A DNA stretch of 52,500 bases from Mortierella sp. BCC40632 (taxonomy: Eukaryota > Mortierellomycota > Mortierellomycetes > Mortierellales > Mortierellaceae), in contig WAEK01000018.1 in assembly GCA_011634665.1 (NCBI GenBank), positions 1 through 52,500 on the forward strand, written 5' to 3'. Numbering within the stretch: the first letter of the stretch is position 1; the number at the start of each line of letters is the position of its first letter. Position numbers and translations under genes: made by a program. The notes beneath the pieces are model-generated. The model made no database searches and was not told the origin of the DNA. It saw only the letters and a list, made by a program, of their open reading frames with translations. Positions 202 through 43,700 of the stretch are shown one piece after another.

Positions 202-920
202 AGTAGGGGCGGGGGTTTGAGGTTTGAGGATTTTATGCAAGGTACGCAACAACGTCGCGGTGAGCAGCCTCCAATTTCAAGCTGGGATGGGGCGGGGGGA
301 TCATCAAGGGGGTGGTGATGGACAAGAGCAGAGAGCTGATCCTATTTCTTTCCTCCTGGGGAGGAGGGGAGGCTGATGCTGAAATTTCAAAGGCCGACAC
401 AAGTTGGAAATAGGGGAAACAGAATAGGGGTGAAAAGAGAGAGGAAAAAGAAAAAGGGGGGGAGGACGGGAGGTCAAGGGAAAAGGGGGTGGGGAAAGAA
501 AAGAGAGGGGGGGTTCTAGACGAGTGGGAAAGTGAAGTGCTACTGCCAGGGAGCTGCCTAACGAGTGGAGGGAAAGATAATAGTCAGGGTAGAAAGAGGC
601 AGTGAATCGAGGTACCTTTGCTAACATCTAACAAAAAGAAGGGAGTGGCAGGAAAAAGATGATCTTTTATTGGTGGTAGGTGAAGGGACTATTTATACAT
701 GTGAGTGAGGTGGACCTTTTAAGTTATAGGGGTGGGAGTGGACATGACCTCAAAGGTTAAAGGGGTGGGTGCTGATGGTCGATACTGTGACACCCTCCAA
801 TGGTTGGAATCGACTGAAAATTGGAATGAACATTCATTTATTGATGATAAACATATTCTCAAAGTTTTAAAGAGGTATCTCAATTGGCTGTTGAGATTTT
901 TGGTCTCTAATAAGGCCTGG
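202..920. other. Non-coding stretch between Gag remnant and Tc1 element
   Basis: Purine-rich on the plus strand between about 300 and 520, with runs of AAAGGGGG type. The longest open frame (304-627, minus) is a proline/phenylalanine-rich translation of this low-complexity DNA and does not look like a protein. About 790-920 shows weak inverted similarity to 2341-2500, so it may be the degenerate outer arm of the Tc1-type element. No RNA gene or promoter recognised. Confidence 0.4.
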
Positions 921-969
921 TCATTGTAACAGTTTTGACCGACATGAAAAATTTCCGTGATTTTTGTCT

Positions 970-2199
970 TCAACGAGCTATATCTCGCTGGATCAGTACT
1001 TTGTTTTGCCTCCCTTTGGCTCTATTTACAGCCCTGAGTCTCTTTAGCATGCTCCTTATCAGGCTGCGGCAGTATTCTACAGGAATCTTGTACCATTCTG
1101 TGGAGATTCTGTCCCATAACTCGCGACAGCTTTTAGGACGCGTTGGATACTTTGCCAGTCTTTTCTTCAAGTATGCCCACATATTTTCGATTGGATTCAA
1201 GTCAGGGGATAGTGCAGGCCAGAATAAAAGCCTATCATCGGTCTCTGTCACCCCAATCGACTCGAGGTACGCCTTGGTAACCTTGGCTGTATGCTTGGGA
1301 TCGTTGTCGTCCTGAAAGATGAATTCTTCTTGAGTCATGCCCCATTCCTCAACAGCAGTGTTTCTCAAAAGTCGGATGATATCCGATCCGACTTTTTTTC
1401 GGGACGGAGATAACACAGGAAAAAAAGTCGGATGATATCCGATCCGACTTTTTTTCGGGACGGAGATAACACAGGAAAAAAAGTCGGATCGGATATCATC
1501 CGACTTTTGAGAAACACTGCTCAACAGACATATGCAGATCCTCTCGAAGAATCTGGATATACAAGTAGGAGTCCATGGTTTCATCGATCTTAGCAATATA
1601 ACCTGGTCCGTTCCATGACATGCATGACCAGACCATCACACTACCCCCACCAAATTTGACTGTTCCTTGGACTGTTCGGCTTGTTATTGCCCCTTCCTGT
1701 TCATCCCACACACACTGCATGCCGTCGGAACAAATTCGGTTGATCTTGGACTCGTCAGACCAGACAACTGAAGCCCAGTCGTCCTCAGTCCATTCCCTTG
1801 TACTTGTTGACAAACTGTAATCGGCCACGAATGTGATTTCTTTTCAACGCAGGTCGTTTCACAACTCGTTTGGCGATTAGTCCAGCCTCTCGAAGTCTTC
1901 TCTTGAGAGTGGTAATCGATATTGGTGCGGGATTGATTTCATTGGCCTGATCAAGTCCATCAGATGCTGACTTGATTAGACCACGTTTCTGATTGAGCTT
2001 GATATGTTCAACTGTCGAGGCTAAAATTTTCCTTGGTCGACCTCCCTTTGAACTTGGACAGATCCAAATCATTGCTTACAGCAATCCTGTGGACAGTTGC
2101 ATTAGAAATATTCAGCTTCTTGGCTGTCTCTCTGGTGGATGTTCCTTCCTGCAAAAGCTTCAATGCTTCCTTGATGGTTCGTGGCGGTGTTGGCTTCAT
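970..2199 (-). pseudogene. Tc1-type transposase, broken by two frameshifts and a foldback insertion
   Basis: Cut-and-paste transposase of the Tc1/mariner superfamily. From the ATG at 2199 the product shows an N-terminal helix-turn-helix (TIKEALKLLQEG...TRETAKKLNISNATVHRI), a GGRPRK linker, a second HTH-like part with LKRRLREAGL, then the DDE nuclease: first Asp in WSDESKINR, second in QDDNDPKHT, Glu in SPDLNPIEN. The spacing between the second Asp and the Glu is 39 residues by direct count, longer than the usual Tc1 34. Frame is lost at about 2040-2045 and at about 1808-1812; both look like one extra G in a GGG run. A 164-bp element plus its 8-bp duplication (172 bp, not a multiple of three) interrupts the segment between the first and second Asp. 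No active protein can be made. Confidence 0.85.
1356..1519. mobile_element. hAT-like foldback element, family F1 (copy a), nested in Tc1 transposase
   Basis: Begins CAGTGTTTCTCAAAAGTCGG and ends with the exact complement, so it is almost wholly palindromic. It is flanked by a perfect 8-bp direct repeat, CTCAACAG, at 1348-1355 and 1520-1527, which is the target duplication size of the hAT superfamily; CAGTG-type ends also fit hAT. Compared with the 109-bp copies at 19789 and 20519 it contains one extra 55-bp direct repeat of its left arm and loop. It has no coding capacity and must rely on a transposase from elsewhere. Confidence 0.88.
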
Positions 2200-2530
2200 A
2201 GTTGGCACATGAGATGAAAAAAGGTAGAACAGTGATTTTTGGAAAAAATCGGGATGTTTTAGAATCAAAACAATGAAAAATTGACGAAAAAAATTTTTTT
2301 ATCGTATTTTTTACATGGTCGGTCAAAACTGTTACAATGATATCGGACCCTTTGTCTGTCAATAACTCTTCAACTATTGCCGTTATCCAGTTGAAACTTT
2401 AAGGACATATTCTCCATTGATTAATGATGCTTCAGTCATATTATCAGGCCATTTGATAACTTATGCAGCATGTAAGTAGGAATTCAGATGAAAAGTAAAA
2501 AACATTGTAACAGTTTTGGCCGGCACTGTA

Positions 2531-3142
2531 TACTCTCCCCTTGCCTACTCAACCTGAGACAGGATTGGACGATAACACCTACCCTGCATTCAGTTCATCC
2601 CCATCATCAGCAATCTCCGAACCCTGCTTTACCTCAGTTCTATTGTGTGGGTTGTGTAGGGTAAGTGTTATATCAGCGGCGAGGTATTAACAAGTAAGAA
2701 AGGTGATGTTCTTTATTACACCTTCCTTGGGTAAATAAAAAGGTAAAAAGCCTCTAGTCAGATCTATCACCTGACTAGATAAAAACCTGTGGGAGGAGAG
2801 CGATCCACAACACGGCTCCCCCCTCCAGACGTTGGCTCCGGGTAGTGCTATTCCGTAGCTCTCGTCTTATGCATCTGAGGAAAATATATCAGCAAAACCT
2901 CAGGGTGGCGTAGAGGAAAATTGGAAAACCTCTGTAGAATTATTGAGGAGAAAAAGGAACGAGTCCTAAAACCTCTTTTGATCATGAATGGTAGGAAAAA
3001 GTCATTATTGTCAAAACCTGAAAATATAGTTGAAGGGAAAAGACATCATGGTCAAAACCTCCTAGATAGCATGAATGTATGAGGGAAAAAGACATTGTTG
3101 TCATAAAAACCTCTTTTGAGTCCATGAGTATTAAAGTATTTA
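2531..3142. other. Non-coding stretch with possible LTR remnant and AAAACCTC repeats
   Basis: No coding region seen. On the minus strand a purine tract near 2815-2830 (GGAGGGGGGAGCCG) is followed by TGTTGTGGATCG, an arrangement seen at the 3' polypurine tract/LTR start of Copia-type elements; the matching LTR end could lie near 2643, but I see no second LTR. Between about 2880 and 3120 a degenerate repeat unit of roughly 60 bp recurs, each with GGAAAAAG-CAT-TGTCAAAACCTC. Low-confidence description. Confidence 0.3.
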
Positions 3143-3502
3143 TTACTTCTTTTTCAGTATATCTAGCAGAGTAGCATCTTCTCTCTGTTGCTTTTTTACT
3201 GCTGCCAAAAGCTCCTCGTTGAGCTTAGATTGCTTCTCTAGAGCTCTTTGGCAGTTGTGTATCATCCTCTGATTGGAGCGGATCATCTTCTGTTGAGCTC
3301 TCATCATCTCTTCGCACTGGGTTGCAGAAACAAGAGTCTTCTCGAATAAGACGCAGGTCCGTTTAGCATTCTCTGTTGCTACCGTGATCCGTTCGTCTTC
3401 TTCTTGCTTCCGCTTGTTTTGCTGTTCAGCGATTTGGAATTTAGAGATAGGGTCGTCAGGAAACAGGCGACCGATTTCCTTTAGTTGGAACTCCATGATC
3501 AC
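3143..3502 (-). CDS. Coiled-coil protein C-terminus, gene truncated by the satellite array
   Basis: Unrecognised. An open frame of 119 codons ends at a TAA at 3143. The first 25 residues include MEFQLKEIGRLFPDDP; the rest is a charged, Gln/Glu/Lys-rich helix (QQNKRKQEEDERI, MMRAQQKMIRSNQRMIHNC, LNEELLAAVKKQQRED) with heptad character, ending in LLDILKKK. Coiled coils of this sort close many transposon-related Myb/SANT proteins, but no DNA-binding domain is visible. The ATG at 3502 is probably not the natural start: the same frame continues open upstream into the first satellite monomer (to about 3620; YEAQNSNGQHYFHRDFLHA, then IGPVIMEF at the junction). The 5' part of the gene seems to have been lost to, or turned into, the satellite. 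Confidence 0.4.
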   Translation of the reverse strand: MIMEFQLKEIGRLFPDDPISKFQIAEQQNKRKQEEDERITVATENAKRTCVLFEKTLVSATQCEEMMRAQQKMIRSNQRMIHNCQRALEKQSKLNEELLAAVKKQQREDATLLDILKKK

Positions 3503-6500
3503 TGGTCCGATGGCATGTAAAAAATCTCTGTGAAAATAATGTTGACCATTGGAATTCTGAGCTTCATAACCAGGACCGCACCTTGTCGTTGAACTAGCAT
3601 GTGGCCAAGGTGATGTTCCTTGGATTTCTTAAGGAATTCCAGGTGTCGAGACTTCAATCTGACCGGCTGGGGCCTCTGGCGTTGGCGCAGCTGTGTGATG
3701 TGACCTTTGTGGACATGCTATGAAAATGCTTTCCTCTCTGATTTCTCGTCTCAGGGTCGGCCCTTGCTCTGAAAAAAGGCCACAGAGTCTTTTTACCTTG
3801 CTCTTGCCAGGGCACAAAAAAAAAAAAAAATTGGGGGTCAAGGCTGCATTTTGGCTTTCCTGGCTCCTGGTGATCACTTGTCCAAATCACCTTTGCCAAA
3901 TCTTGGACAAGTCAAAATAGGCAATGTCGACCTAGAGCTCCCTGGCCATGCCCTCACCTTGGCATTAAACAAGCATGAAGCCAGAGTGGTGTTCTTTTTG
4001 GATTTCTTAAGGAATTCCAGGTGTCGAGACTTCAATCTGACCGGCTGGGGCCTCTGGCGTTGGCGCAGCTGTGTGATGTGACCTTTGTGGACATGCTATG
4101 AAAATGCTTTCCTCTCTGATTTCTCGTCTCAGGGTCGGCCCACAGCTCTGAAAAAAAGGCCACAGAGTCCTTTTACCTTGCTCTTGCCAGGGCGCAAAAA
4201 AAAATTGGGGGTCAAGGCTGCAGTGTGGCACTCCTGACTCCAAGTGATCACTGGTCCGATGGCATGTAAAAAATCTCTGTGAAAATAATGTTGACCATTG
4301 GAATTCTGAGCTTCATAACCAGGACCGCACCTTGTCGTTGAACTAGCATGTGGCCAAAGGTGATGTTCCTTGGATTTCTTAAGGAATTCCAGGTGTCGAG
4401 ACTTCAATCTGACCGGCTGGGGCCTCTGGCGTTGGCGCAGCTGTGTGATGTGACCTTTGTGGACATGCTATGAAAAAAATGCTTTCCTCTCTGATTTCTC
4501 GTCTCAGGGTCGGCCCACAGCTCTGAAAAAAAAAGGCCACAGAGTCCTTTTACCTTGCTCTTGCCAGGGCGAAAAAAAAAAAAAAAAAAATTGGGGGTCA
4601 AGGCTGCAGTGTGGCACTCCTGACTCCAAGTGATCACTGGTCCGATGGCATGTAAAAAAAAATCTCTGTGAAAATAATGTTGACCATTGGAATTCTGAGC
4701 TTCATAACCAGGACCGCACCTTGTCGTTGAACTAGCATGTGGCCAAGGTGATGTTCCTTGGATTTCTTAAGGAATTCCAGGTGTCGAGACTTCAATCTGA
4801 CCGGCTGGGGCCTCTGGCGTTGGCGCAGCTGTGTGATGTGACCTTTTGTGGACATGCTATGAAAATGCTTTCCTCTCTGATTTCTCGTCTCAGGGTCGGC
4901 CCACAGCTCTGAAAAAAAAAAGGCCACAGAGTCCTTTTACCTTGCTCTTGCCAGGGGCAAAAAAAAAAAAATTGGGGGTCAAGGCTGCATTTTGGCTTTC
5001 CTGGCTCCTGGTGATCACTTGACAAATCACCTTGTAAAAATCTTGGACAAGTCAAAATAGGCAATGTCGACCTAGAGCTCCCTGGCCATGCCCTCACCTT
5101 GGCATTAAACAAGCATGAAGCCAGAGTGGTGTTCCTTGGATTTCTTAAGGAATTCCAGGTGTCGAGACTTCAATCTGACCGGCTGGGGCCTCTGGCGTTG
5201 GCGCAGCTGTGTGATGTGACCTTTGTGGACATGCTATGAAAATGCTTTTCCTCTCTGATTTCTCGTCTCAGGGTCGGCCCACAGCTCTGAAAAAAAAAGG
5301 CCACAGAGTCCTTTTTACCTTGCTCTTGCCAGGGCGCAAAAAAAAAAAAAATTGGGGGTCAAGGCTGCAGTGTGGCACTCCTGACTCCAAGTGATCACTG
5401 GTCCGATGGCATGTAAAAAATCTCTGTGAAAATAATGTTGACCATTGGAATTTCTGAGCTTCATAACCAGGACCGCACCTTTGTCGTTGAACTAGCATGT
5501 GGCCAAGGTGATGTTCCTTGGATTTCTTAAGGAATTCCAGGTGTCGAGACTTCAATCTGACCGGCTGGGGCCTCTGGCGTTGGCGCAGCTGTGTGATGTG
5601 ACCTTTGTGGACATGCTATGAAAATGCTTTCCTCTCTGATTTCTCGTCTCAGGGTCGGCCCACAGCTCTGAAAAAAAGGCCACAGAGTCCTTTTACCTTG
5701 CTCTTGCCAGGGCGCAAAAAAAAATTGGGGGTCAAGGCTGCAGTGTGGCACTCCTGACTCCAAGTGATCACTGGTCCGATGGCATGTAAAAAATCTCTGT
5801 GAAAAAAATAATGTTGACCATTGGAATTCTGAGCTTCATAACCAGGACCGCACCTTGTCGTTGAACTAGCATGTGGCCAAGGTGATGTTCCTTGGATTTC
5901 TTAAGGAATTCCAGGTGTCGAGACTTCAATCTGACCGGCTGGGGCCTCTGGCGTTGGCGCAGCTGTGTGATGTGACCTTTGTGGACATGCTATGAAAATG
6001 CTTTCCTCTCTGATTTCTCGTCTCAGGGTCGGCCCACAGCTCTGAAAAAAAGGCCACAGAGTCCTTTTACCTTGCTCTTGCCAGGGCGCAAAAAAAAAAA
6101 TTGGGGGGTCAAGGCTGCATTTTGGCTTTCCTGGCTCCTGGTGATCACTTGACAAATCACCTTTGCCAAATCTTGGACAAGTCAAAATAGGCAATGTCGA
6201 CCTAGAGCTCCCTGGCCATGCCCTCACCTTGGCATTAAACAAGCATGAAGCCAGAGTGGTGTTCCTTGGATTTCTTAAGGAATTCCAGGTGTCGAGACTT
6301 CAATCTGACCGGCTGGGGCCTCTGGCGTTGGCGCAGCTGTGTGATGTGACCTTTGTGGACATGCTATGAAAATGCTTTCCTCTCTGATTTCTCGTCTCAG
6401 GGTCGGCCCACAGCTCTGAAAAAAAGGCCACAGAGTCCTTTTACCTTGCTCTTGCCAGGGCGCAAAAAAAAATTGGGGGTCAAGGCTGCAGTGTGGCACT

Positions 6501-9500
6501 CCTGACTCCAAGTGATCACTGGTCCGATGGCATGTAAAAAATCTCTGTGAAAATAATGTTGACCATTGGAATTCTGAGCTTCATAACCAGGACCGCACCT
6601 TGTCGTTGAACTAGCATGTGGCCAAGGTGATGTTCCTTGGATTTCTTAAGGAATTCCAGGTGTCGAGACTTCAATCTGACCGGCTGGGGCCTCTGGCGTT
6701 GGCGCAGCTGTGTGATGTGACCTTTTGTGGACATGCTATGAAAATGCTTTCCTCTCTCTGATTTCTCGTCTCAGGGGTCGGCCCACAGCTCTGAAAAAAG
6801 GCCACAGAGTCCTTTTACCTTGCTCTTGCCAGGGCGCAAAAAATTGGGGGTCAAGGCTGCAGTGTGGCACTCCTGACTCCAAGTGATCACTGGTCCGATG
6901 GCATGTAAAAATCTCTGTGAAAATAATGTTGACCATTGGAATTCTGAGCTTCATAACCAGGACCGCACCTTGTCGTTGAACTAGCATGTGGCCAAGGTGA
7001 TGTTCCTTGGATTTCTTAAGGAATTCCAGGTGTCGAGACTTCAATCTGACCGGCTGGGGCCTCTGGCGTTGGCGCAGCTGTGTGATGTGACCTTTGTGGA
7101 CATGCTATGAAAATGCTTTCCTCTCTGATTTCTCGTCTCAGGGTCGGCCCACAGCTCTGAAAAAAAAAAGGCCACAGAGTCCTTTTTACCTTGCTCTTGC
7201 CAGGGCGCAAAAAAAAAATTGGGGGTCAAGGCTGCATTTTGGCTTTCCTGGCTCCTGGTGATCACTTGACAAATCACCTTTGCCAAATCTTGGACAAGTC
7301 AAAATAGGCAATGTCGACCTAGAGCTCCCTGGCCATGCCCCCTCACCTTGGCATTAAACAAGCATGAAGCCAGAGTGGTGTTCCTTGGATTTCTTAAGGA
7401 ATTCCAGGTGTCGAGACTTCAATCTGACCGGCTGGGGCCTCTGGCGTTGGCGCAGCTGTGTGATGTGACCTTTGTGGACATGCTATGAAAATGCTTTCCT
7501 CTCTGATTTCTCGTCTCAGGGTCGGCCCACAGCTCTGAAAAAAGGCCACAGAGTCCTTTTACCTTGCTCTTGCCAGGGGGCAAAAAATTGGGGGTCAAGG
7601 CTGCAGTGTGGCACTCCTGACTCCAAGTGATCACTGGTCCGATGGCATGTAAAAATCTCTGTGAAAATAATGTTGACCATTGGAATTCTGAGCTTCATAA
7701 CCAGGACCGCACCTTGTCGTTGAACTAGCATGTGGCCAAGGTGATGTTCCTTGGATTTCTTAAGGAATTCCAGGTGTCGAGACTTCAATCTGACCGGCTG
7801 GGGCCTCTGGCGTTGGCGCAGCTGTGTGATGTGACCTTTGTGGACATGCTATGAAAATGCTTTCCTCTCTGATTTCTCGTCTCAGGGTCGGCCCACAGCT
7901 CTGAAAAAAAAGGCCACAGAGTCCTTTTACCTTGCTCTTGCCAGGGCAAAAAAAAAAAATTGGGGGTCAAGGCTGCAGTGTGGCACTCCTGACTCCAAGT
8001 GATCACTGGTCCGATGGCATGTAAAAATCTCTGTGAAAATAATGTTGACCATTGGAATTCTGAGCTTCATAACCAGGACCGCACCTTGTCGTTGAACTAG
8101 CATGTGGCCAAGGTGATGTTCCTTGGATTTCTTAAGGAATTCCAGGTGTCGAGACTTCAATCTGACCGGCTGGGGCCTCTGGCGTTGGCGCAGCTGTGTG
8201 ATGTGACCTTTGTGGACATGCTATGAAAATGCTTTCCTCTCTGATTTCTCGTCTCAGGGTCGGCCCACAGCTCTGAAAAAAAAGGCCACAGAGTCCTTTT
8301 TACCTTGCTCTTGCCAGGGCGCAAAAAAAAAATGGGGGTCTCAAGGCTGCATTTTTGGCTTTCCTGGCTCCTGGTGATCACTTGACAAATCACCTTTGCC
8401 AAATCTTGGACAAGTCAAAATAGGCAATGTCGACCTAGAGCTCCCTGGCCATGCCCCTCACCTTGGCATTAAACAAGCATGAAGCCAGAGTGGTGTTCCT
8501 TGGATTTCTTAAGGAATTCCAGGTGTCGAGACTTCAATCTGACCGGCTGGGGCCTCTGGCGTTGGCGCAGCTGTGTGATGTGACCTTTGTGGACATGCTA
8601 TGAAAATGCTTTTCCTCTCTGATTTCTCGTCTCAGGGTCGGCCCACAGCTCTGAAAAAAAAAAAAAAAAAAGGCCACAGAGTCCTTTTACCTTGCTCTTG
8701 CCAGGGCGCAAAAAAAAAAGGGCTGCATTTTGGGCTTTCCTGGCTCTTTTGGTGATCACTGGTCCAATGGCACCTTTGCCAAATCTTGGACATGTTGACC
8801 AAAATAGGCAATGTCGACCTAGAGCTCCCTGGCCATGCCCTCACCTTGGCATTAAACAAGCATGAAGCCAGAGTGGTGTTCCTTGGATTTCTTAAGGAAT
8901 TCCAGGTGTCGAGACTTCAATCTGACCGGCTGGGGCCTCTGGCGTTGGCGCAGCTGTGTGATGTGACCTTTGTGGACATGCTATGAAAATGCTTTCCTCT
9001 CTGATTTCTCGTCTCAGGGTCGGCCCACAGCTCTGAAAAAAGGCCACAGAGTCCTTTTACCTTGCTCTTGCCAGGGCGCAAAAAAAAAATTGGGGTCAAG
9101 GCTGCAGTGTGGCTTTCCTGACTCCTGGTGATCACTGGTCCGATGGCATGTAAAAATCTCTGTGAAAACAAATGTTGACCATTGGAATTCTGAGCTTCAT
9201 AACCAGGACCGCACCTTGTCGTTGAACAAGCATGTGGCCAGGTGATGTTCCTTGGATTTCTTAAGGAATTCCAGGTGTCGAGACTTCAATCTGACCGGCT
9301 GGGGCCTCTGGCGTTGGCGCAGCTGTGTGATGTGACCTTTGTGGACATGCTATGAAAATGCTTTCCTCTCTGATTTCTCGTCTCAGGGTCGGCCCACAGC
9401 TCTGAAAAAAGGCCACAGAGTCCTTTTTACCTTGCTCTTGCCAGGGCGCAAAAAAAAAAAAAATTGGGGGTCAAGGCTGCATTTTGGCTTTCCTGGCTCC

Positions 9501-30548: not shown

Positions 30549-32126
30549 CCGAAACAACGAGAGAGAAGAGAGAAGATCGTTACTTCGTAATAGAGGTTGC
30601 CCCGATTGAACGAGGCCATGAACAGTCGCAGCTTTGGTGGGTCCGGCAACCCAAGGGTCTCTATGATATCACGCCTCACTCTAGAGTAAGATGGAGATAC
30701 TGGTAAATCATTCAGATATTTTACACTCGGACAGTCATCACAAAACCATGCTCTAAAAACTTCTCTATACCTTTCAGTTGCTGTTGCTGTTAATGCGAGG
30801 ATTGGAAGTCTTGGGAATGCAGCTCTAAAGTAGCCTAGCTTTGCGTAATCCTTTCTAAAGTCATGACCCCATTCACTGATGCAGTGTGCCTATTATGATC
30901 CACACAAAAATATCATAAACCATTCATTAGGGACAGGAAAGGTGTGATTAAAGTGGAAAAAGCTGAGCCTCACTTTTTGCAAAGAGTTACCTCGTCAATA
31001 ACCAATCTACTGAGTGCATTGCGACTGTGCAATGCTGCGACATGTTTTCGAAAATCGTCGGTCGCCAGTAGCTCTGGGGTGACTAGAAGAGTAAATCAAC
31101 ACCCAAATGTCAGCGGTTAAAATCCCTTGCAACTCTTCATAAATGTTAGTAGGCTGGCCCATGCGCTAGTTCCATCAATATGTGCTCACTCGCTTACCGT
31201 AGAGGAGTTTCGTTGTTGGCGTTTCAAGACCTAGATCTGTCAAGATCTTGACCCGTTCCTTTTTGCCAATAGTCGAATTAAGTGAGGCTGCTTTTATCCC
31301 AAGTCGTGTGAGAGCACTAGCTTGATCGTGAATAAGGGCGAGCAGTGGCGAAACAACAATGGTGACTCCTTTGCTCAGGACTGCAGGAAGCTGGTAACAG
31401 AGTGATTTTCCACCTCCAGTGGGCATAATAACCAGAACATCCTGCTCTATAATTTAGAAAAACTGGATTAGAGTTGAGATGTCTTTGTGGCCATGTAAAA
31501 ACTAGATCGCTGTCCAATATCAACGTAAAGTTACTCTCGGTCGGTGACCTGATTTTGGTGGCAAGATTTCTAACCTTCTAGTGCAGCTTGGACAATGCTA
31601 AGCTGATGGCCACGAAACTCATTCAAATGGAAGACTAATAAAGAAGAAGAAGAAGAAGAAGAAGAAGAAGAAGAAGAAGAAGAAGAAGAAGAAGAAGAAG
31701 AAGAAGAAGAAGAAGAAGAAGAAGAAGGAAAAGGAGGTACTCTTTGATGAAAACCCCAATGGAGAGACATGTGTCTTGCTTTTTTTTTTTTTTTTTTTTC
31801 CTCCTCAAAAAAGTCATCATTGGTACCTGAGCGAAGGCATTTGTAGCAGTCTGCGGTGGTTTTGACGCCATGGCGATCCTGCTCCCCCTTGCGAAATGAA
31901 TCCGAGTAACCAGAGTGGTTCCTGAAGGACAGCTGTGTCTGGACCTTGACCCGCTTCATCAGTTGTGCCAGCTTCCACTTTGTGCCTGGAGAGGGAGAGA
32001 AAAGGAGAAGAGAGAGAAAAGCAGGCCAACACTCTTCCAACACTGATCAAAATTACACTCCAGGGCTAATCCAGACCGAGAAACAGTCCTCTGGGCGAAA
32101 CACCCTTTGCACTGTCTTTCTGTCAT
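28321..32126 (-). CDS. RecQ-family ATP-dependent DNA helicase (942 aa, 10 exons)
   Basis: Exons (minus): 32126-32033, 31985-31827, 31634-31575, 31446-31198, 31082-30991, 30889-30771, 30680-30584, 30466-29941, 29835-29185, 29102-28321; phases close. Unwinds DNA 3'-5' in recombination and replication repair in the nucleus. Order: Cys-rich N-terminus (CKGCFAQR...CNFDQC), motif 0 ([10 protein letters not shown]), Walker [15 protein letters not shown], motif Ia ([14 protein letters not shown]), DEAH box [16 protein letters not shown] split by an intron between E and A, motif III ALTATAT, motif IV-V ([33 protein letters not shown]), motif [15 protein letters not shown], and the RecQ zinc-binding Cys set ([12 protein letters not shown]...CDIC). 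The ~280-residue C-terminus with [12 protein letters not shown] is unassigned; no HRDC domain seen. Intron 8 has a GC donor (AAG-GCAAGT). First exon is the least certain. Confidence 0.9.
31641..31727. repeat. (GAA)29 / (TTC)29 microsatellite in RecQ intron 2
   Basis: Twenty-nine uninterrupted GAA triplets on the plus strand, TTC on the RecQ sense strand, ending six bases from the 3' splice site at 31635. It therefore doubles as an extreme polypyrimidine tract. The open frames here (poly-Ser, poly-Leu) are translations of the repeat and not protein. The same intron also carries a 21-base T run (plus strand, 31779-31799). Confidence 0.93.
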
Positions 32127-32442: not shown

Positions 32443-33081
32443 ATGACGAAAACTGGGGCCCGGAAAAAGGAGCTGGTACCCATTGAAGAGGATACTCCAA
32501 TAAACAACGAAAAGGGAACGTCTGACCTTGAGATGCTTGTCGTTAGTAGTCTGCAAAAGCTGGTTAGTGCCATCTCTTGTCTTTTGCCTGATGGATCAAG
32601 CAAGAAGACACAATTCTAACGCGTTGGCTCCTTTGATTTTTAGGCTGCTCTCTTTGATAGCGACTCTCCCCCCAGCTGGGATGACGACGGCACGTATCAT
32701 AACTACACTGATTCAGATCTGGACGCTGGCGAAGACGATCTGGACTCTATCAGTAACGCTGACTCCGCCAATGAGGACGACATCGTCGGCTCGGCTGCAG
32801 AATATGGCGTAGGTCAAGATGAGCAAGGTGCTGATTCTGTCGAAGACGACGCCAGCATTGGCGAAGAGGTAGAATTGGAAACGGAAAGCTCAATAGACAG
32901 CAATTTCGACATCGCACCCACTCTGACTGAGGGAACTCCAATTGAGGTGAGTGTTTATGAGGCTCGACTGCCCTTTCTTTCTTTCTTTTTCTCTATTTCT
33001 ATAAACTAGCCTAGTTTGCCCTGCGTACCGCAGGGATCCCCCATTGCATCTCTAACTGATGTTGGAGGCATAGTAAGTTGA
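32443..33081 (+). CDS. Small acidic protein of unknown function (~156 aa)
   Basis: Unrecognised. Exons 32443-32562 and 32644-32946 are well supported (donor GTTAGT, acceptor TTTTTAG, donor GTGAGT; phase 0). A third exon 33034-33081 (acceptor CCGCAG) would add GSPIASLTDVGGIVS and a TGA; alternatives extend the gene further, so the 3' end is uncertain. The product starts MTKTGARKKELVP and is then dominated by Asp/Glu/Ser (SWDDDGTYHNYTDSDLDAGE, EDDASIGEEVELETE), with no hydrophobic span or Cys motif. A disordered acidic nuclear factor is a guess. Divergently placed with RecQ. Confidence 0.55.
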
Positions 33082-33365
33082 GCTATCTCCTGTGAATATG
33101 AACAGGTATGTTTGGTGGGACGGATTGTCCTTGTAAATGGCTCCAGTGTATGTCTCTCAGTGCACGGTCTTCAAACTGACATAATCATGAACTGTATGGA
33201 GAGAGAGAAAGAGAGGAGGAGAGAGAGAGCGCTTTTGAGCACACATTCCTCAGACTTAAGCTGTTCGTTACGTAGTAGCTCTGTTTTGCATAGCTGTGGC
33301 ACGCAGGACCAAGCACTTGTATTCAAACTCCTGCCCTTGCTGAATTGAACATTTCTCAAATTGAC
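33082..33365. other. Non-coding gap with GAGAGA tract
   Basis: Includes a GGAGAGAGAGAAAGAGAGG tract at 33199-33220. The open frame to 33348 could be a 3' extension of the acidic-protein gene but has no acidic character, so I leave it out. Confidence 0.35.
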
Positions 33366-33565
33366 CTCTTTTCTAAATGGTCCTTTTTTCTAAATGGTCC
33401 TTTTTTCAAATCCTACTTTTTCTCGAAATAGTCCTTTTTTCAAATCCTACTTTTCGAAATAGTCCTTTTTTCAAATCCTACTTTTTTTCGAAATAGTCCT
33501 TTTTTCAAATCCTACTTTTTTCGAATCCTACTTTTCGAAATAGTCCTTTTTTCTAATCCTACTAC
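33366..33565. repeat. Minisatellite of CCTTTTTTCAAATCCTACTTTT units
   Basis: About six imperfect copies of a ~32-bp unit built from TCGAAATAGTCC, TTTTTTCAAATCC and TACTTTTT, preceded by two copies of a TTTCTAAATGGTCC variant. It lies ~400 bp upstream of the XPG-Fanzor gene. No function evident. Confidence 0.8.
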
Positions 33566-33963
33566 TGCTACAATGCCTTCTGGCTCAAAACTGTTCTACA
33601 TCTCACCACCCACTCGAAAAACTCACATGGACAGATGTAAAAAAGCAAGGCCTACAGCTTTCTCATAGTAATCATGCCAAAAAAAACATGTCCACACTTC
33701 ACTAATAGAGAACTGGTCAAATTGGTGCCTTTTGGCTACATTGGTCTTGTCTAGCGCTGATTGGACGGCCCAAAATTAGTAGAACAATAGTTGGGAGGGG
33801 GGGTGGCGGAGCGTATTAGGACTCTCTTTGTGGTAGTAACATTTTCTCTCTCTCTCTTCCTCTCTCTCTCTCTTTCTCAACTCTCAACCTTCCTACCTTA
33901 TTTTTTTTTCTCGCCCTTCAAACCTCCTTTACACTCATACACACATCTCCGTCACGCTTAGCA
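33566..33963 (+). promoter_or_regulatory. Upstream region of the XPG-Fanzor gene
   Basis: No open frame. The last ~120 bp are a CT-rich tract (TTCTCTCTCTCTCTTCC, 33841-33880) leading to the ATG at 33964, similar to the tracts ahead of SEC62 and the acidic-protein gene. I found no terminal inverted repeat that pairs with the sequence downstream of 37758. Confidence 0.45.
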
Positions 33964-36900
33964 ATGGGGGTCGCCGGATTATGGAGACTCATCGATGGCT
34001 CTATCACGGCTCCTGAAGAAACAGTACCGGAAGGAACGAGGGTACTCGTCGATTTATTTGGAGCATATTTTTGGAGAATAAAAAAATTTACACCAAATGT
34101 CATCCCGAGAGACGAGCCGCGATCCTGGACAAGTTCCTCTCGGAGCGCCTTCCCAAGACCCATCTTACCGAGATCTTCGTGGATGGCTATCCAACAAAGA
34201 ACAAAGCAAAAACCCATGCCCAGAGGACAGCCGCTGTAAACAAAAAGGTTGAGAAAGCCCACAAGCTGGTTGACGAGGCAGAGAGAAGAGCCCAAATGGG
34301 CAAACCTCTTTCACGGACCAAGCATCAGATTTTTAATCGCCTCATCGATTCAGCGGTTTCCCTGACAGTCGAGGACAGAGATGAAATCACCAAACTACTT
34401 CAAAAAACTGGCTGGAACGCTCATCGGGCACCTGGTGAGGCTGACGTCGCTGTCAGACTCCGACACGATAGTTTAACACGGTCTGGACAATCCGTGTTGG
34501 TCGTGTCTGGCGACTCGGATTTATTGGCCCATCGCAGCATCGGGGTTGTCTTTCGTCCAACGGCTCGCTCGTTCAAGCGATACGATGTCGATGACTGTGC
34601 CAAGGCCCTCGGAGTATCCCGGGCACAGCTGACAGCTCTGGCGGCTGTTTCTCTTAACGACTACAGCGACAACGTTCCAGGATTAGGAACAAAGTCGAAC
34701 TTTGGCATAATTCGCGAGCTTACCCAAGGTAATTGTCTGCAGTCACTATCACGTTGACTTGCTTGTTCATAGTCTCTAATCAATTTCCTTCATAACAGCA
34801 AGCATTGGCGAGCTAGTTGATGCGTATGGTAGATCATCCAGGGTCAGCAAGAATACAAGCAGGCCTATCGATTATTCCCAAGCTCTGCTTGTATACGAGC
34901 ACGGTCAAGAGTTAATGTATGCCCCTGAAGAGGCCAAGATCGCCAATGGTCAGGCAGTCCTCAGGAACAGCCAAGTTTTCGACCTACAAAGCAGAGTCAA
35001 GGCCACAAAAGCCCTGCGCTTGAAAGCTGCTGGAAAGAGGTAGGATGGTGTTCCTCTATTTAATTGACTTGTTGCATGATTACAGTCCGATATTGACCTT
35101 TTTTTTTTTTTTTTTTTTTTTTAACCCCCACCCCCCTGCCAGATCTTCTGAGAATACCCAGACACGCCGAAGGAACAGGAACCAGGAGTACAATCGGTTT
35201 CGACCGATGGATGCTCCTGCATGCAGCAGTGCAACCATCCGCGTGGAAAGAGCCTTTACTGTATCAAGAGCGCCCGTGGCAAACCCGCTGCTATCGCAAA
35301 CTATGGACGTTGACCCAAAAAGCCTATTGCCATTATCAGCACCAAAACCTGGGCCACGATACACCATCCGCACACACGACCGAGAGAGCAAAAAGGAACA
35401 CGAGAGACCAACCATGCTCAAGCGCACTGAATGGAGGCCCATGAAGGAGCCAAGCCAAAGACCAAAGACGGACCCATGTACATTGGCACCAAAGAAGGCT
35501 AACAAGAAACGCAAGGCGATAGCCAAACCGACAAGGATCTCCAAGCACACACTGGTCAAACGGATGGCTCGGGAACACAGGATGTCCACACTAACCGTTG
35601 GTGCATTGAGTACAAATGTCAGACGCGTGGGATTACCCACAAATCTGCAGGAAGAGGTCATTTCGATCATCCGGGACTGCGTTGACGACGCAAACTCAGT
35701 GAAACGGGAGGCTCAACTGGCCCTCGCTCTCTTTATCCAGTCCAACGCAGAAAGTTTTGAGTCAGTAAAGGCGATCCTGTTCAAGGTTACATCAGTCGAG
35801 GCGACTGGTGAGGAGATAAATGGGATCACAGATGAGGATGAAGACGAAGGGAGCCCGAACCCAAGCTCAACACCCTTTCTTTTGGCATTACTTCGGTGCC
35901 TGTATTATCGGGAACAAACCCCGAATGCGCGAAACCCTAACAAAACTCTCATCGGAAAGATCCTTAGCTCATTTTACACGATCTTCACATTTACACCAAA
36001 TCGAAAAACCAGAAGCAAAGAAAAAAAGAACAAAGGCGAAACAGCGAACTGTATTTTTTCATCCGTCGCAACAGCAATGTCAGTAGAGTACCAACGGTAC
36101 TTCCAGAACCGCATACAAAACAAACCATCCCGATTGCCACTTTCACCAATTGCGAATGGGTTCATATCCATGAGCGAGCGAGAGCTTTTCTACGTTCTCT
36201 TCGAGAACAGTGAGGCTATGGATGCACACCTCGATGGTCTGATTCGAGAGCATTTTCCAGAGACCACGAACATGTCAATTGTCCCGACTTTGGACACGAT
36301 CCCTCCTGGATGGCTGATCAGTCAAATAATCTCACCAGTGGGATTAAACTCCCCCAGCTCCCCTCGTGGAGGGTTCATGAAGTCTACCACCATAACCACG
36401 AAGAATGAAATGGTAGCCATCCTGGATGGACTGGGAAACAGTCCAAGCAGCTCTACTCTCCAAGATCAGCGACAGCAGTCGACTGCCGCCAAGAAACTCA
36501 CAGATGGCTCAACGATGGAGGGTATTCAGTCCACGGACAAGCAGCATAGATTCAAGTATGCTCTCTATGGCTCTTTCCAAACCAACGGCGTCGAATTGAA
36601 CCTGAGAGCCATCAACCTTTGCATCCGACGAAGTAAACGTTTCTCCCTGGCCGATGAGCGGCACGTTCCCAGTGCCGATCAGCTGCATGACCCTGAAGAA
36701 GGCCACGATCAATTCCTAAAAGAGATCCGAAACGTCCTAGGTTCGAAAGAGCGCGTCGAAAGCATATTTGGCCATTCAGGGACAGGACCGGGCCCACCGA
36801 CACAGGTAGGCAAGGATGTGGATGTCCTTTGCCTGGATCCAGGCCAAACATGCACAATTGCAGCCTATGCCGTTCGAGGCGATCACCCAGGGGTTGGCCT

Positions 36901-37758
36901 TTCTCTTGTAGTCAAGAACAAGGCACTCTATCAACCGACCTTCAAGTTCCGCCAAGAACTCCAGCAGCGAAAAGGCAATGAAGATAACGGGGCTGGTTTG
37001 TCTATCGCTGACATCGAGTCAAGTATCCCATCACTTGACCAGGATCCAAAAGGAAGGATCAAAGCAGAGATGGAGCATTGCAAGGACCTCTGGAAGTTCT
37101 ACAATGGCCACAATGCAAAGTTCCTTCGTGCTCGATGGGATGCTAACAAGGCTCGAGAAGGCGAGTATGGGATTGTCACTGACAGGCTGCTGTCAATGTT
37201 GGGAGGTAGCATTGGCGCGCGTCGTGCCCCTGAGAAAAAAGCCTTGATAGTTGTCGGGCTTGGGTCGTTTGATAGTCCCAGAGGGCTTATGTCCCTTCAT
37301 GGATAATTCCTCAGTTACTTTATTGCCAAAGTAAGTATACAGTATGTTTCGCAGGTTCGGATAAAAAAAAACTTGACTTGACATACTTATCTTTTCTACA
37401 TTCCGACTTCTAGGCAAGATCGCTCGATTACCTGGTGGTCGGGATCAATGAGTTCTACACCTCGAAGCGATGCCCAAAATGCCAACGCAGTGGAAGGGAT
37501 CCGTTAGACTTTGTCTCGTCTGCATCGATTCGCAGGTTATTTTGCGAGTCCTGCAATACGCCATTCCACCGCGATGTTCTGGCAGCGGGCAATATGGCAG
37601 TGGCCGCAAGAGAGCATTTGCAGAACCAGCAACGACCTCGATATCTTTTGCCGGTACATGGAGACGGTTCGTACGGATGGCGATCATCTTTGGCAGAGTC
37701 TCCGAGGCAGATACAAGATACAGAGTCCATAGCTGGACCATCAACCAAGAGACAATAG
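33964..37758 (+). CDS. XPG/FEN1-type nuclease fused to Fanzor (TnpB-like) RuvC nuclease; two lesions
   Basis: Exons 33964-34728, 34799-35039, 35143-37330, 37414-37758 (GT-AG; phases 1, 0, 0 once a single base is allowed for in exon 1); product would be 1179 residues. N-terminal XPG/FEN1 nuclease: MGVAGLWRLIDG, D30 in VLVDLFG, D74 in FVDG, E159/D161 in PGEADVAVR, D184/D186 in VSGDSDLL, D223/D226 in NDYSDNVPGLG (H3TH). A basic linker (~335-480) and an unassigned helical middle follow. C-terminal Fanzor/TnpB part: D901 in LCLDPGQT, E1078 in GINEFYTSKRC, zinc ribbon C1085/C1088/C1109/C1112, D1119 in HRDVLAAGN. The known Fanzor signature (D, 125-275 residues, [TS][TS]xx, C4 finger, RD) is met with 179 residues. 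Lesions: an A7 run (34080-34086) one base short of frame, and TAA at 37304 (codon 1057) before the zinc ribbon. Either a recent pseudogene or an unusual expression signal. Confidence 0.85.
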
Positions 37759-38029
37759 TCTTATGCGTGTCAACAAACACGAGAATTAGTTTAGAGGTAA
37801 GTGCTACTGGCCTATTCCACGCCTATGGGCACACATCATGATCGGGTGCTCACACTAAATCATTATTTCCTTTCAATTCCTTCATTAGTTCCTTGTGGTC
37901 AGTGCATAAGGACACTCATTCGAACTTCCCGCCCCTTTTCTTCACACACAACCACCACCAGGCTTGCTCCATCACAAGGATACATCAACAAAAGACATTG
38001 GCCAGGGCATTCATAGCACAGATTCAGAC
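37759..38029. other. Short gap between XPG-Fanzor 3' end and aftiphilin-like start
   Basis: 271 bp without a gene. Contains TTGTGGTCAGTGCATAAGG and an intron-like GGTAAGTGC at 37797; an untranslated first exon of the next gene may lie here. Reading the aftiphilin-like frame further up gives an alternative ATG at 37964. Confidence 0.35.
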
Positions 38030-40790: not shown

Positions 40791-43700
40791 TTAGAAAAGA
40801 GCCTCTCCTTCCTGAGTGTCCCACATGTGTCGATAGATTCCATCCCGCTTGAGAAGGTCCTCGTGGCGGCCCTGCTCAGCAATCTGACCGTCCTTTAGAA
40901 CAATGATCTCGTCTAATAAGGGGAAGAAAATAAGATGAAGGATTAGTAGATGTTATGTCATAATCGGGATTCATTGATAACAGAACAGAACCAAAAAAAA
41001 AAAAAAAAAAAAAAGGAAGGAAGGAAGGAAGGAAGGAAGGAAGGAAGGAAGGAAGGAAGGAAGGAAGGAAGGGAGGGAGGGAAGGAAGGAGGGAAGGAAG
41101 GAGGGAAGGAAAGAAGAGGGGGGGATCTTACCGGCATCGGCAATCGTTCGCAGGCGATGAGCGACAAAGATGCTAGTGCCACCACGCTCATGCAAGACTG
41201 ATCGGATATTGGCCAAAAGTCCCTGTTCCGTATGTGTATCAAGAGCTGAGGTTGCCTCATCAAAGAACATAATAGGCGAGTTCTTCAAGATCGCTCTGGA
41301 CAGAGCCACACGCTGCTTCTCGCCTCCAGACAACATCAGACCACGCTCTCCGACCTTGGTCTCATATTGGTCCGGGAGCTTCATAATAGCGTCGTGGATC
41401 TGAGCCCTCTTGGCGGCCTGAATCACTTCTTCATCCGTGGCGCTCACACGTCCATACTGGATATTGCGTTTGATGGTCGTGTTGAACAGAGCTGTCTCCT
41501 GTGGGACAACTCCGATATGCGTCCGAAGACTATCCACCTTCACATCTCGAATATTTTGTTTGTCAATAAACACGTTTCCAGACTGTGGGTCGTAGAATCG
41601 GAACAAGAGTCTCAACAGAGTTGACTTGCCACATCCAGAGGGTCCTACAACGGCCACCTTCTTGCCCGCTGGAACCACAAAACTCACGCCTTTGAGAATA
41701 GGCCGATCTGGATGATATCCAAAGACGACATTCTCAAACCGAAGCTCAGCTCCGTTGGCGGCAAGCTGTAGCAGCTTAGCATCAGGCTTGTCCTTGATAT
41801 TGGCGTGGACTCCCTGGAGGTTGAACATAGTTTCCATGTCGACAAGAGCCTGGCGCAACTCACGATAAACCGATCCCAAAAAGTTCAAAGGTAGAGAGAG
41901 CTGGAAGACAAGTTGATTAATCATAACAACATCACCGACGGTCATAGTTCCGGCAAGGACTCCTTGAGCAGCCAAGTACATCATAGCAGTCAAACTGGTG
42001 GAGAAGATCACATTCTGGCCAGCATTCAGGAAAGCAAGACTTGAAGCAATCTTGAGCGATGACTTTTCGTACTTGGCCAACGCGTCGTCATACTGATTCA
42101 GCTCAAACTTTTCATTGTTGAAGTACTAACACAGGCAATACAAAATCGCAGACATAAATACTTTGTGATTAAACACCCATTACAGCAGCAACGAACCTGG
42201 CAGACTCCCTAGATGATGTACTTTTAAACACAGAACCAACTATTTTGTCCGCAAGAGGATATGCTTACCTTGACCGATTCAAAATTAATCAACGACTCGA
42301 CAGCAACCGTAGCAGCCTGATTGTCCGCAGCATTGGCTTGCTTCCTAAACTTTGTTCGCCAGGCAGTCGTTTGGACCGTGAACCATGTATAGGCGGCCAT
42401 AGTAGCAGCCGTGACTGCAGCGAACGAGGCTCCAAATTGGTACGTGAGAATACTGCAAACCATTGTGATTTCAAGCGCCGTGGGCAAAAGATGGAAAACC
42501 ATTGATGACAACAGGAAACTGATGCCTCTGTAGTCAACCGCAAATAATTGGATTTGAGAGATAAAGACGGGTGAGTATTCGAGCTGCAAAAGATCTCTTC
42601 CCTTTTCGACTGATCGTAGAATCTGAAGCGAACTGATTTCAGTGCCTACTTTGTTCCCCTGTCAATAGCACGACTGAGACCTCCTGTTTGCTTGGTCAAA
42701 TGAAAAGACATATCCAGACGATGAAGATGCTCAAAGACGTTGGCAGAGACGCGACGGATTGCCTTTTGAGCAACGGCAGCAAAGACGGCATTCCTGAGTT
42801 CACCAAAGATCGAAGATCCTGCACGAGCGAGACCATCTTTCGCAAAACACAAAGGAGGAGAAAAGAAAGAACGGGAAGGGAGAGGAGGGCAGGGAAGGGT
42901 TGATGCGATATTAGTTGTTACTCCAATTCGGATGTCTAAAAAAAAAAAAAAAAAAAACCTGTAGATTCGACTTACATCCAAGAATAGCAGCTCCAGCTAC
43001 AGCGAGGACAGTGGCCTCAGCTGGGAACTCGACATTGAGCTTGTCAATAATATCCTTGAAGAAAAATGGCACCTGAACGTTCAACAATTTACCCGTTATC
43101 AGCAGACCCAGTGCGACGACCACACGAATCTTTACGCCTCGATCATCCTTTGGCCAAATATATCCTGATAGTTCCTTGAAAATTTTCCAATCCATTTTGT
43201 TTTGCTCAGCATTGGCTGCCTTTTCAGCTGCCTTTTCAACTGCCTTGGCAGAGGCGGAACCCGCACCAGAGGCAGCAGCGGGTGTGCCAAAGGCACTGCC
43301 TGCATTCTTGACAGAAGCATTCGCAGCAGCGCCCGACCCAACAGCGGATCCAGATTCCGATGCCTGTCCTGGTCGTGGTCCAAGTCCTGATCCAGACGCG
43401 GGGATGCCCTTGCCCGAGTCCACGCTCTTGTAAAAAGGTGCAGAGGGACGAGTAAAGGCCCGACTCTGACCTCGCCTTGAGAGAATCGAGCTGAGCGAGA
43501 CAGGCTGACCAGCGGGCGCAGTCTATCAGTTACACGTACAAGGTCTCGAATCTCGTTAGGAAAAAAAAAAAAAAAAAGTCTGATCTCGTCCCTCTTGAGT
43601 GCAGATATTGATTCAGGAATGAATGCTCAGAGCCGGGTTTCGTACCTCACGGGCTGCAAGTCGAGCGGAAACGAGTCCGAGAGGCGAAGAGGTGTGCAGA

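Follow-up and report, generated by a model that had tools for sequence, protein, structure and literature searches.

Predicted fusions of an XPG/FEN1-type nuclease with a Fanzor1 nuclease in Mortierellaceae, with a broken copy in Mortierella sp. BCC40632

The stretch of DNA analysed here (the window, 52,500 nucleotides) comprises the first 52.5 kb of contig WAEK01000018.1 (C18) of Mortierella sp. BCC40632 (assembly GCA_011634665.1; 49.9 Mb, 62 contigs). It carries a copy of a gene, called XPG-Fanzor below, in which sequence for an XPG/FEN1-type nuclease precedes that for a Fanzor1 nuclease (Table 1). The first-pass annotation, made from the letters alone, had described XPG/FEN1 acidic motifs and, downstream, a Fanzor RuvC core with a C4 zinc ribbon and HRD; these were found on the same strand and in the same order. 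Exon 1 opens with an XPG-like start (MGVAGLWRLIDG...), followed by the acids D30, D74, E159/D161, D184/D186 and D223/D226. The Fanzor fold begins at about position 35570 within exon 3, which also bears RuvC-I (LDPGQ), and exon 4 bears GINEFYTSKRCPKC and HRD. Six copies of the surrounding element (subfamily A) part ways directly after ...AAGGACACTC, which marks its right end; its left limit was set by the C7 and C12 copies alone (query 721-4918 common to both, with parts common to C26 and C19).

Table 1. Features of the window around the XPG-Fanzor gene.
Feature	Position	Strand	Remarks
Subfamily A XPG-Fanzor element, ~4.2 kb	33720..37917	+	right end sharp, left end less certain
Exon 1, XPG/FEN1-type nuclease half	33964..34728	+	frame change inside A-run 34080-34086
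Intron 1, phase 1, GT-AG	34729..34798	+	in-frame join
Exon 2, bridging exon (241 nt): end of XPG region/linker	34799..35039	+	
Intron 2, phase 2, GT-AG	35040..35142	+	in-frame join
Exon 3: linker, REC, WED and RuvC of a Fanzor1	35143..37330	+	
Intron 3, phase 0, consensus donor GTAAGT at 37331	37331..37413	+	
Exon 4: alternative glutamate, C4 zinc ribbon (TNB), HRD	37414..37758	+	Pfam Cas12f1-like_TNB, E 6e-11
Conserved non-coding right end, candidate omega/reRNA scaffold	37833..37917	+	86% identity with C4 copy
Solo ends of a different ~6-kb repeat family	33004..33563	+	longer copies adjoin the C7 and C12 XPG-Fanzor copies

The window copy is broken twice. Splice phases had been said to agree with one polypeptide at all three introns; this held for the first two, and the consensus donor of the third is preceded by an in-frame TAA (37304-37306), a stop that the C12 copy does not have there. 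Splicing from weak phase-0 in-frame donors at 37250 and 37253 could avoid the TAA, yet would also remove a GLGxF...SLHxxFxSYF segment that is retained in relatives. The proposed single open frame was not borne out in exon 1 either: D30 lies in the frame of position 33964, D74 and all of the later exon in the frame of 34017. The C7 copy reads unbroken through the A-run at which the frame switches, and the change may be an assembly error. A single intact four-exon gene at these positions was ruled out by the frame change and the TAA, and the claim of a working protein encoded here found no support. The five other copies with the same right end (C7, C12, C26, C19:450k and C4:1453k) have frame shifts, stops, truncations or internal deletions, and all six copies of subfamily A are thus broken or truncated. 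The ratio of non-synonymous to synonymous substitution rates (dN/dS) was well below 1, where pairs with C12 (0.47-0.62) are confounded by the frame shift of that copy and dS is saturated between subfamilies; the window copy would have been under purifying selection before its reading frame was lost.

The fusion itself recurs across the genome. Matches to the XPG half (44) were clustered into 39 loci, at 29 of which the same strand carries, no more than 5 kb downstream, a match to the Fanzor half or to TNB; 28 of these pairs are distinct, as C4:2275970 shares its Fanzor match with the neighbouring C4:2280832. The halves are thus not always kept apart in related loci, and the fusion proposed by the first-pass annotation proved genuine. 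A TNB match lies downstream at 24 of the 39 loci, against 0.09 expected, which rules out chance neighbours. The remaining ten XPG-like loci lack a Fanzor match downstream, and 24 of 48 TNB matches lack an XPG match upstream; at unpaired loci the partner half may be absent or have escaped detection. At C9, C6a, C6b and in the window the XPG core is followed by a bridging exon (226-250 nt) that lies between a phase-1 and a phase-2 intron. Ten loci were modelled as spliced genes, and the one at C9:2242k (C9) is the only complete one: stop-free, with 1366 aa, six exons and every catalytic position. Closely after the XPG-Fanzor gene at C6b comes the 3' portion of a large-subunit rRNA gene (C6:2623899-2624507; Rfam RF02543, model 2391-3399); short words from the 5' portion of the rRNA did not turn up in the left flank retrieved at that locus.

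The same architecture was found in other species. Protein searches scored the 7986-7989 candidates that shared the most words with the query, and occurrence is judged among these. The C9 protein as query returned 22 proteins, to which a profile built from ten of them added three; all 25 are gene models from genera of the Mortierellaceae, a family of soil fungi. The best relative (P0002, Mortierella sp. AD094, 1315 aa) is 53% identical over 99% of the C9 query. The XPG DxD and NDY motifs occur together with RuvC-I in 17 of the 25 proteins, and all five signatures (also the alternative glutamate and HRD) in ten, although P0009 and P0015, both from a single species, could represent the same locus. 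Exon 3 of the window as protein query gave one match. A scan of IMG/VR viral contigs with an alignment of ten long relatives gave 126 stretches that fitted the patterns, none of which was confirmed; the available part of PMC11071296 has one phrase on candidates in viral contigs.

Profile searches had been proposed as a check; on the window pieces they succeeded for the Fanzor half, where Cas12f1-like_TNB (PF07282) scored 42.8 bits (cut-off 26.3), and XPG_I stayed below its Pfam cut-off, a threshold for naming (19.9 versus 24.9 bits, E 0.001). XPG_I and XPG_N are also below cut-off in C9 (15.0 versus 24.9 and 13.8 versus 22 bits). A RAD2/FEN1 profile matches (E 1.5e-8), and P0015, P0018 and P0026 bear PF00867 in database tables. 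XPG-family nucleases cut single/double-strand junctions or resect 5' ends. As in the XPG/RAD2 nucleases (FEN1, EXO1, XPG, RAD2 and GEN1), the whole catalytic core fold and the catalytic acids are present: the modelled XPG half aligns with EXO1 over 278 residues, and the metal-binding acids are all kept in the ten long proteins aligned, wherever these positions are spanned. XPG-Fanzor proteins have D as the second acid of the E-x-E pair, giving E-A-D where FEN1 and XPG have E-A-E. Unlike those nucleases, the XPG half is joined to a predicted guided nuclease and appears to be transposon-borne. A whole-length fold search with P0003 gave, among the matches listed, XPG-type chains only; as these filled the list, the Fanzor half was modelled alone, and its fold matches solved Fanzor1 structures. 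Structure prediction thus returned the expected fold for each half.

In Fanzor1 proteins an alternative RuvC-II glutamate precedes the first CxxC by six residues (Yoon 2023, available part of PMC10711439). It is present at this spacing in the window (GINEFYTSKRCPKC) and in nine of the nine relatives spanning the site. RuvC-I reads DLG in nine of the ten long relatives, where Fanzors have DPG, and DPG in the window and in P0011; the WED motif is TDG in seven of the ten and TNG in the other three and in the window. Its sequence makes the enzyme a Fanzor1, one whose domain architecture is new: SpuFz1, GtFz1 and PpFz1 lack the complete XPG/FEN1-type nuclease that it has at the N-terminus. PpFz1, from Parasitella parasitica, is likewise a fungal Fanzor1 with an added domain, yet that addition, the FRI insertion in RuvC, is a protein-binding module that binds cyclophilin and not a second nuclease (PMC11423790, as far as available). 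Closest in setting are the Fanzor1 elements ROr-4, PBl-3, MCi-4 (MuDR-like) and MCi-2 of Rhizopus, Phycomyces and Mucor (Bao and Jurka 2013; PMC3627910, available part): the first three place Fanzor1 in MuDR-type elements, as seems to be the case here, and MCi-2 combines variable 5' parts with a constant 3' Fanzor part, as XPG-Fanzor does. In the same part of that source these elements have 9-bp or 11-12-bp duplications and encode no MuDR transposase, and an XPG half goes unmentioned. No description of an XPG-Fanzor fusion was found in the literature within reach, which excluded most subscription journals, so that one may exist; nor was literature found there on Fanzor or Cas12f1-like TNB in Mortierell- fungi.

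Evidence for a mobile vehicle comes from subfamilies B (99.3-100% identity over ~590 nt at five loci) and C (97.8-99.8% over ~450 nt at five loci), the copies of which each continue into unrelated flanks, nested insertions apart. At C15 the subfamily C element measures 6945 bp and has TAGTCCGA at both borders, an 8-bp duplication; further 8-bp duplications were found at C3 (CCACTACC) and C2 (homopolymer-like AAAAAAAG). MULE/MuDR elements make target duplications of 8-11 bp. Mobility follows from the near-identical dispersed copies with different flanks and from the target duplications. Eight of the 39 loci (0.05 expected) have an upstream SWIM match on the opposite strand, and one of these also has a MULE domain: divergent from the fusion gene, C6b has a SWIM finger that exceeds its cut-off and a MULE domain that, at 26.0 bits, stays below its own (27.6). 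In subfamily C the same position holds SWIM above and FAR1 below cut-off. No transposase open reading frame (ORF) was seen in the window element, and no clear terminal inverted repeats (TIRs) in subfamily B. At C15:126080-126087 and C2:1639207-1639214 a C-type element stands exactly 8 bp after a B-type right end, those 8 bp being the target duplication of the C-type element; right ends may mimic a preferred target. The left flank AGGAGAAGG before the C-type left end at C1:545.4k equals the right flank of an F-type right end 14 kb on (C1:559441), and the two are possibly one nested element.

Fanzors are RNA-guided nucleases (PMC10432273, available part), and the right end gives rise to their reRNAs, which for Fanzor1 include TIR and target site duplication (PMC10711439, in the part available). 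In subfamily A the C4 copy is 86% identical over the last ~85 nt before the right end, compared with 70% and 76% in its two long aligned blocks; this right-end stretch is a candidate scaffold, and sequence beyond 37917 would then be the guide. The right ends of B, C and F form hairpins, the last a long stem at the element border (z -5.1 for subfamily C). The motif GGTGACGT[AC]AT occurs in 19 of 38 right-end stretches, and CGGTGACGTAAT occurs 49 times genome-wide, compared with 7 occurrences of the reversed control. That the motif is a terminal repeat bound by the transposase gained no support: the genome-wide list has no inverted copy near the left ends of B (C11) or C (C15). A divergent subfamily (C10:835k, C5:905k, C8:1627k and C17:1098k) has XPG-like and TNB matches ~3 kb apart and right ends that are 93.5-99.6% identical and without GTGACGT[AC]AT.

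Around the window element, a DEAD helicase fragment (PF00270, E 1e-12; 31175-31450, minus strand) lies on one side and an ABC transporter (PF00005, E 7e-35; 41103-42125, minus strand) on the other. The longer copies of the repeat family at 33004-33563, beside the C7 and C12 XPG-Fanzor copies, hold ~5.4 kb extra inside, and an ORF in the C7/C12 flank has a weak TNB match (E 0.0044; 17.6 bits, cut-off 26.3). By eye, the 5' flank of the C26 fragment (C26:305400-305700) resembles the window near 32450-32530, immediately ahead of the element; a segment with an internal deletion may thus have been duplicated.

Sequence comparison and structural models establish the predicted fused architecture and that it recurs in this genome and in other species; they likewise establish the two sets of catalytic acids, the two folds, the MULE-type SWIM fingers and the 8-bp duplications in one subfamily. 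The C9 copy and the proteins of related species look complete. The explanation that we favour, with a confidence just above even, is that the window copy is dead and belongs to a Mortierellaceae transposon gene encoding one polypeptide with an N-terminal XPG/FEN1/EXO1-type nuclease, a linker and a complete Fanzor1, which together would help to retain the element. The MULE transposase would excise the element and leave a vacated target site; the Fanzor half, loaded with RNA read from the right end into the flank, would cut that vacated or an empty target site; and the XPG half, held at the R-loop or fresh break, would trim the displaced strand or the 5' ends. Such trimming or resection in cis could push repair to copying from the element-bearing homologue, by which the element would be kept or spread.

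Several observations weigh against this explanation. That the XPG half acts on the Fanzor product, a guided cut being followed by flap removal or resection in cis, we infer from Fanzor RNA guidance (PMC10432273), the right-end reRNA (PMC10711439), both sources as far as available, and general XPG nuclease activity. Nine of the ten modelled loci are incomplete. C6a (1113 aa; one in-frame TAG counted in the XPG-half match) can be read without a stop only if a short intron with a weak donor is assumed, which removes the second XPG acid, and C6b (1225 aa) only with an intron that takes out RuvC-I; both are therefore likelier broken and were rejected as intact loci, and the remaining models need comparable skips. 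This mostly decayed state fits a transposon family. The related proteins are gene predictions, eight of the 25 lacking one or more of DxD, NDY and RuvC-I, and Fanzors without the fusion may exist, given the TNB matches without XPG upstream. Target duplications were not found at C25 and C4 (two of the five subfamily C copies), in subfamily B or, where looked for, at the window copy. The window right end (37760-37918) folds weakly (z -1.69), and the right-end motif is in no subfamily A right end; by eye, motif-like sequences stand ~14-15 nt before the left ends at C3, C4 and C1, outside the element. The motif may be a preferred DNA target feature instead of part of an RNA, and because of these left-flank likenesses its RNA reading is a lead only.

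The same single protein could be put together for another purpose, the XPG half removing flaps or trimming ends for the MULE transposase while the Fanzor rides along. The opposite-strand SWIM fingers and the ten XPG-like loci without Fanzor agree with this; at paired loci, however, the XPG half is joined to Fanzor and not to the transposase, and the ten long proteins keep RuvC and XPG acids alike, which leaves such a role rather unlikely. Divergence of the XPG half, visible in the sub-threshold profile scores of C9 and the window, would also suit an end- or R-loop-binding module for targeting or stability with little catalysis, a role made improbable by the retention of every metal-binding acid and by the EXO1-like fold.

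Two adjacent genes merged by gene prediction, with separate proteins, would account for P0015 and P0018, which end before RuvC. They would not account for the bridging exon, whose conserved intron phases link the halves at divergent loci, nor for the proteins with all five signatures, and we give this very little weight. Hardly to be expected, finally, is a domesticated host gene family with a cellular role in defence or repair: the low dN/dS speaks for it, but the near-identical dispersed copies of B and C with their different flanks and target duplications mean mobility, and most modelled copies are decayed.

XPG-Fanzor might, with less than even probability, be a natural two-step guided nuclease, in which an RNA-guided break would be followed by EXO1/FEN1-type trimming or resection in cis and so lead to homology-directed copying of the transposon. 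Repair nucleases, FEN1 and EXO1 among them, have reportedly been supplied to guided editors in a prime-editing study; XPG-Fanzor would then be nature's version of a guided editor with its repair nuclease, in several Mortierellaceae genera. The question of why eukaryotic transposons keep guided nucleases would become testable, and the fungi would offer a family of two-nuclease enzymes with complete-looking members open to assay.
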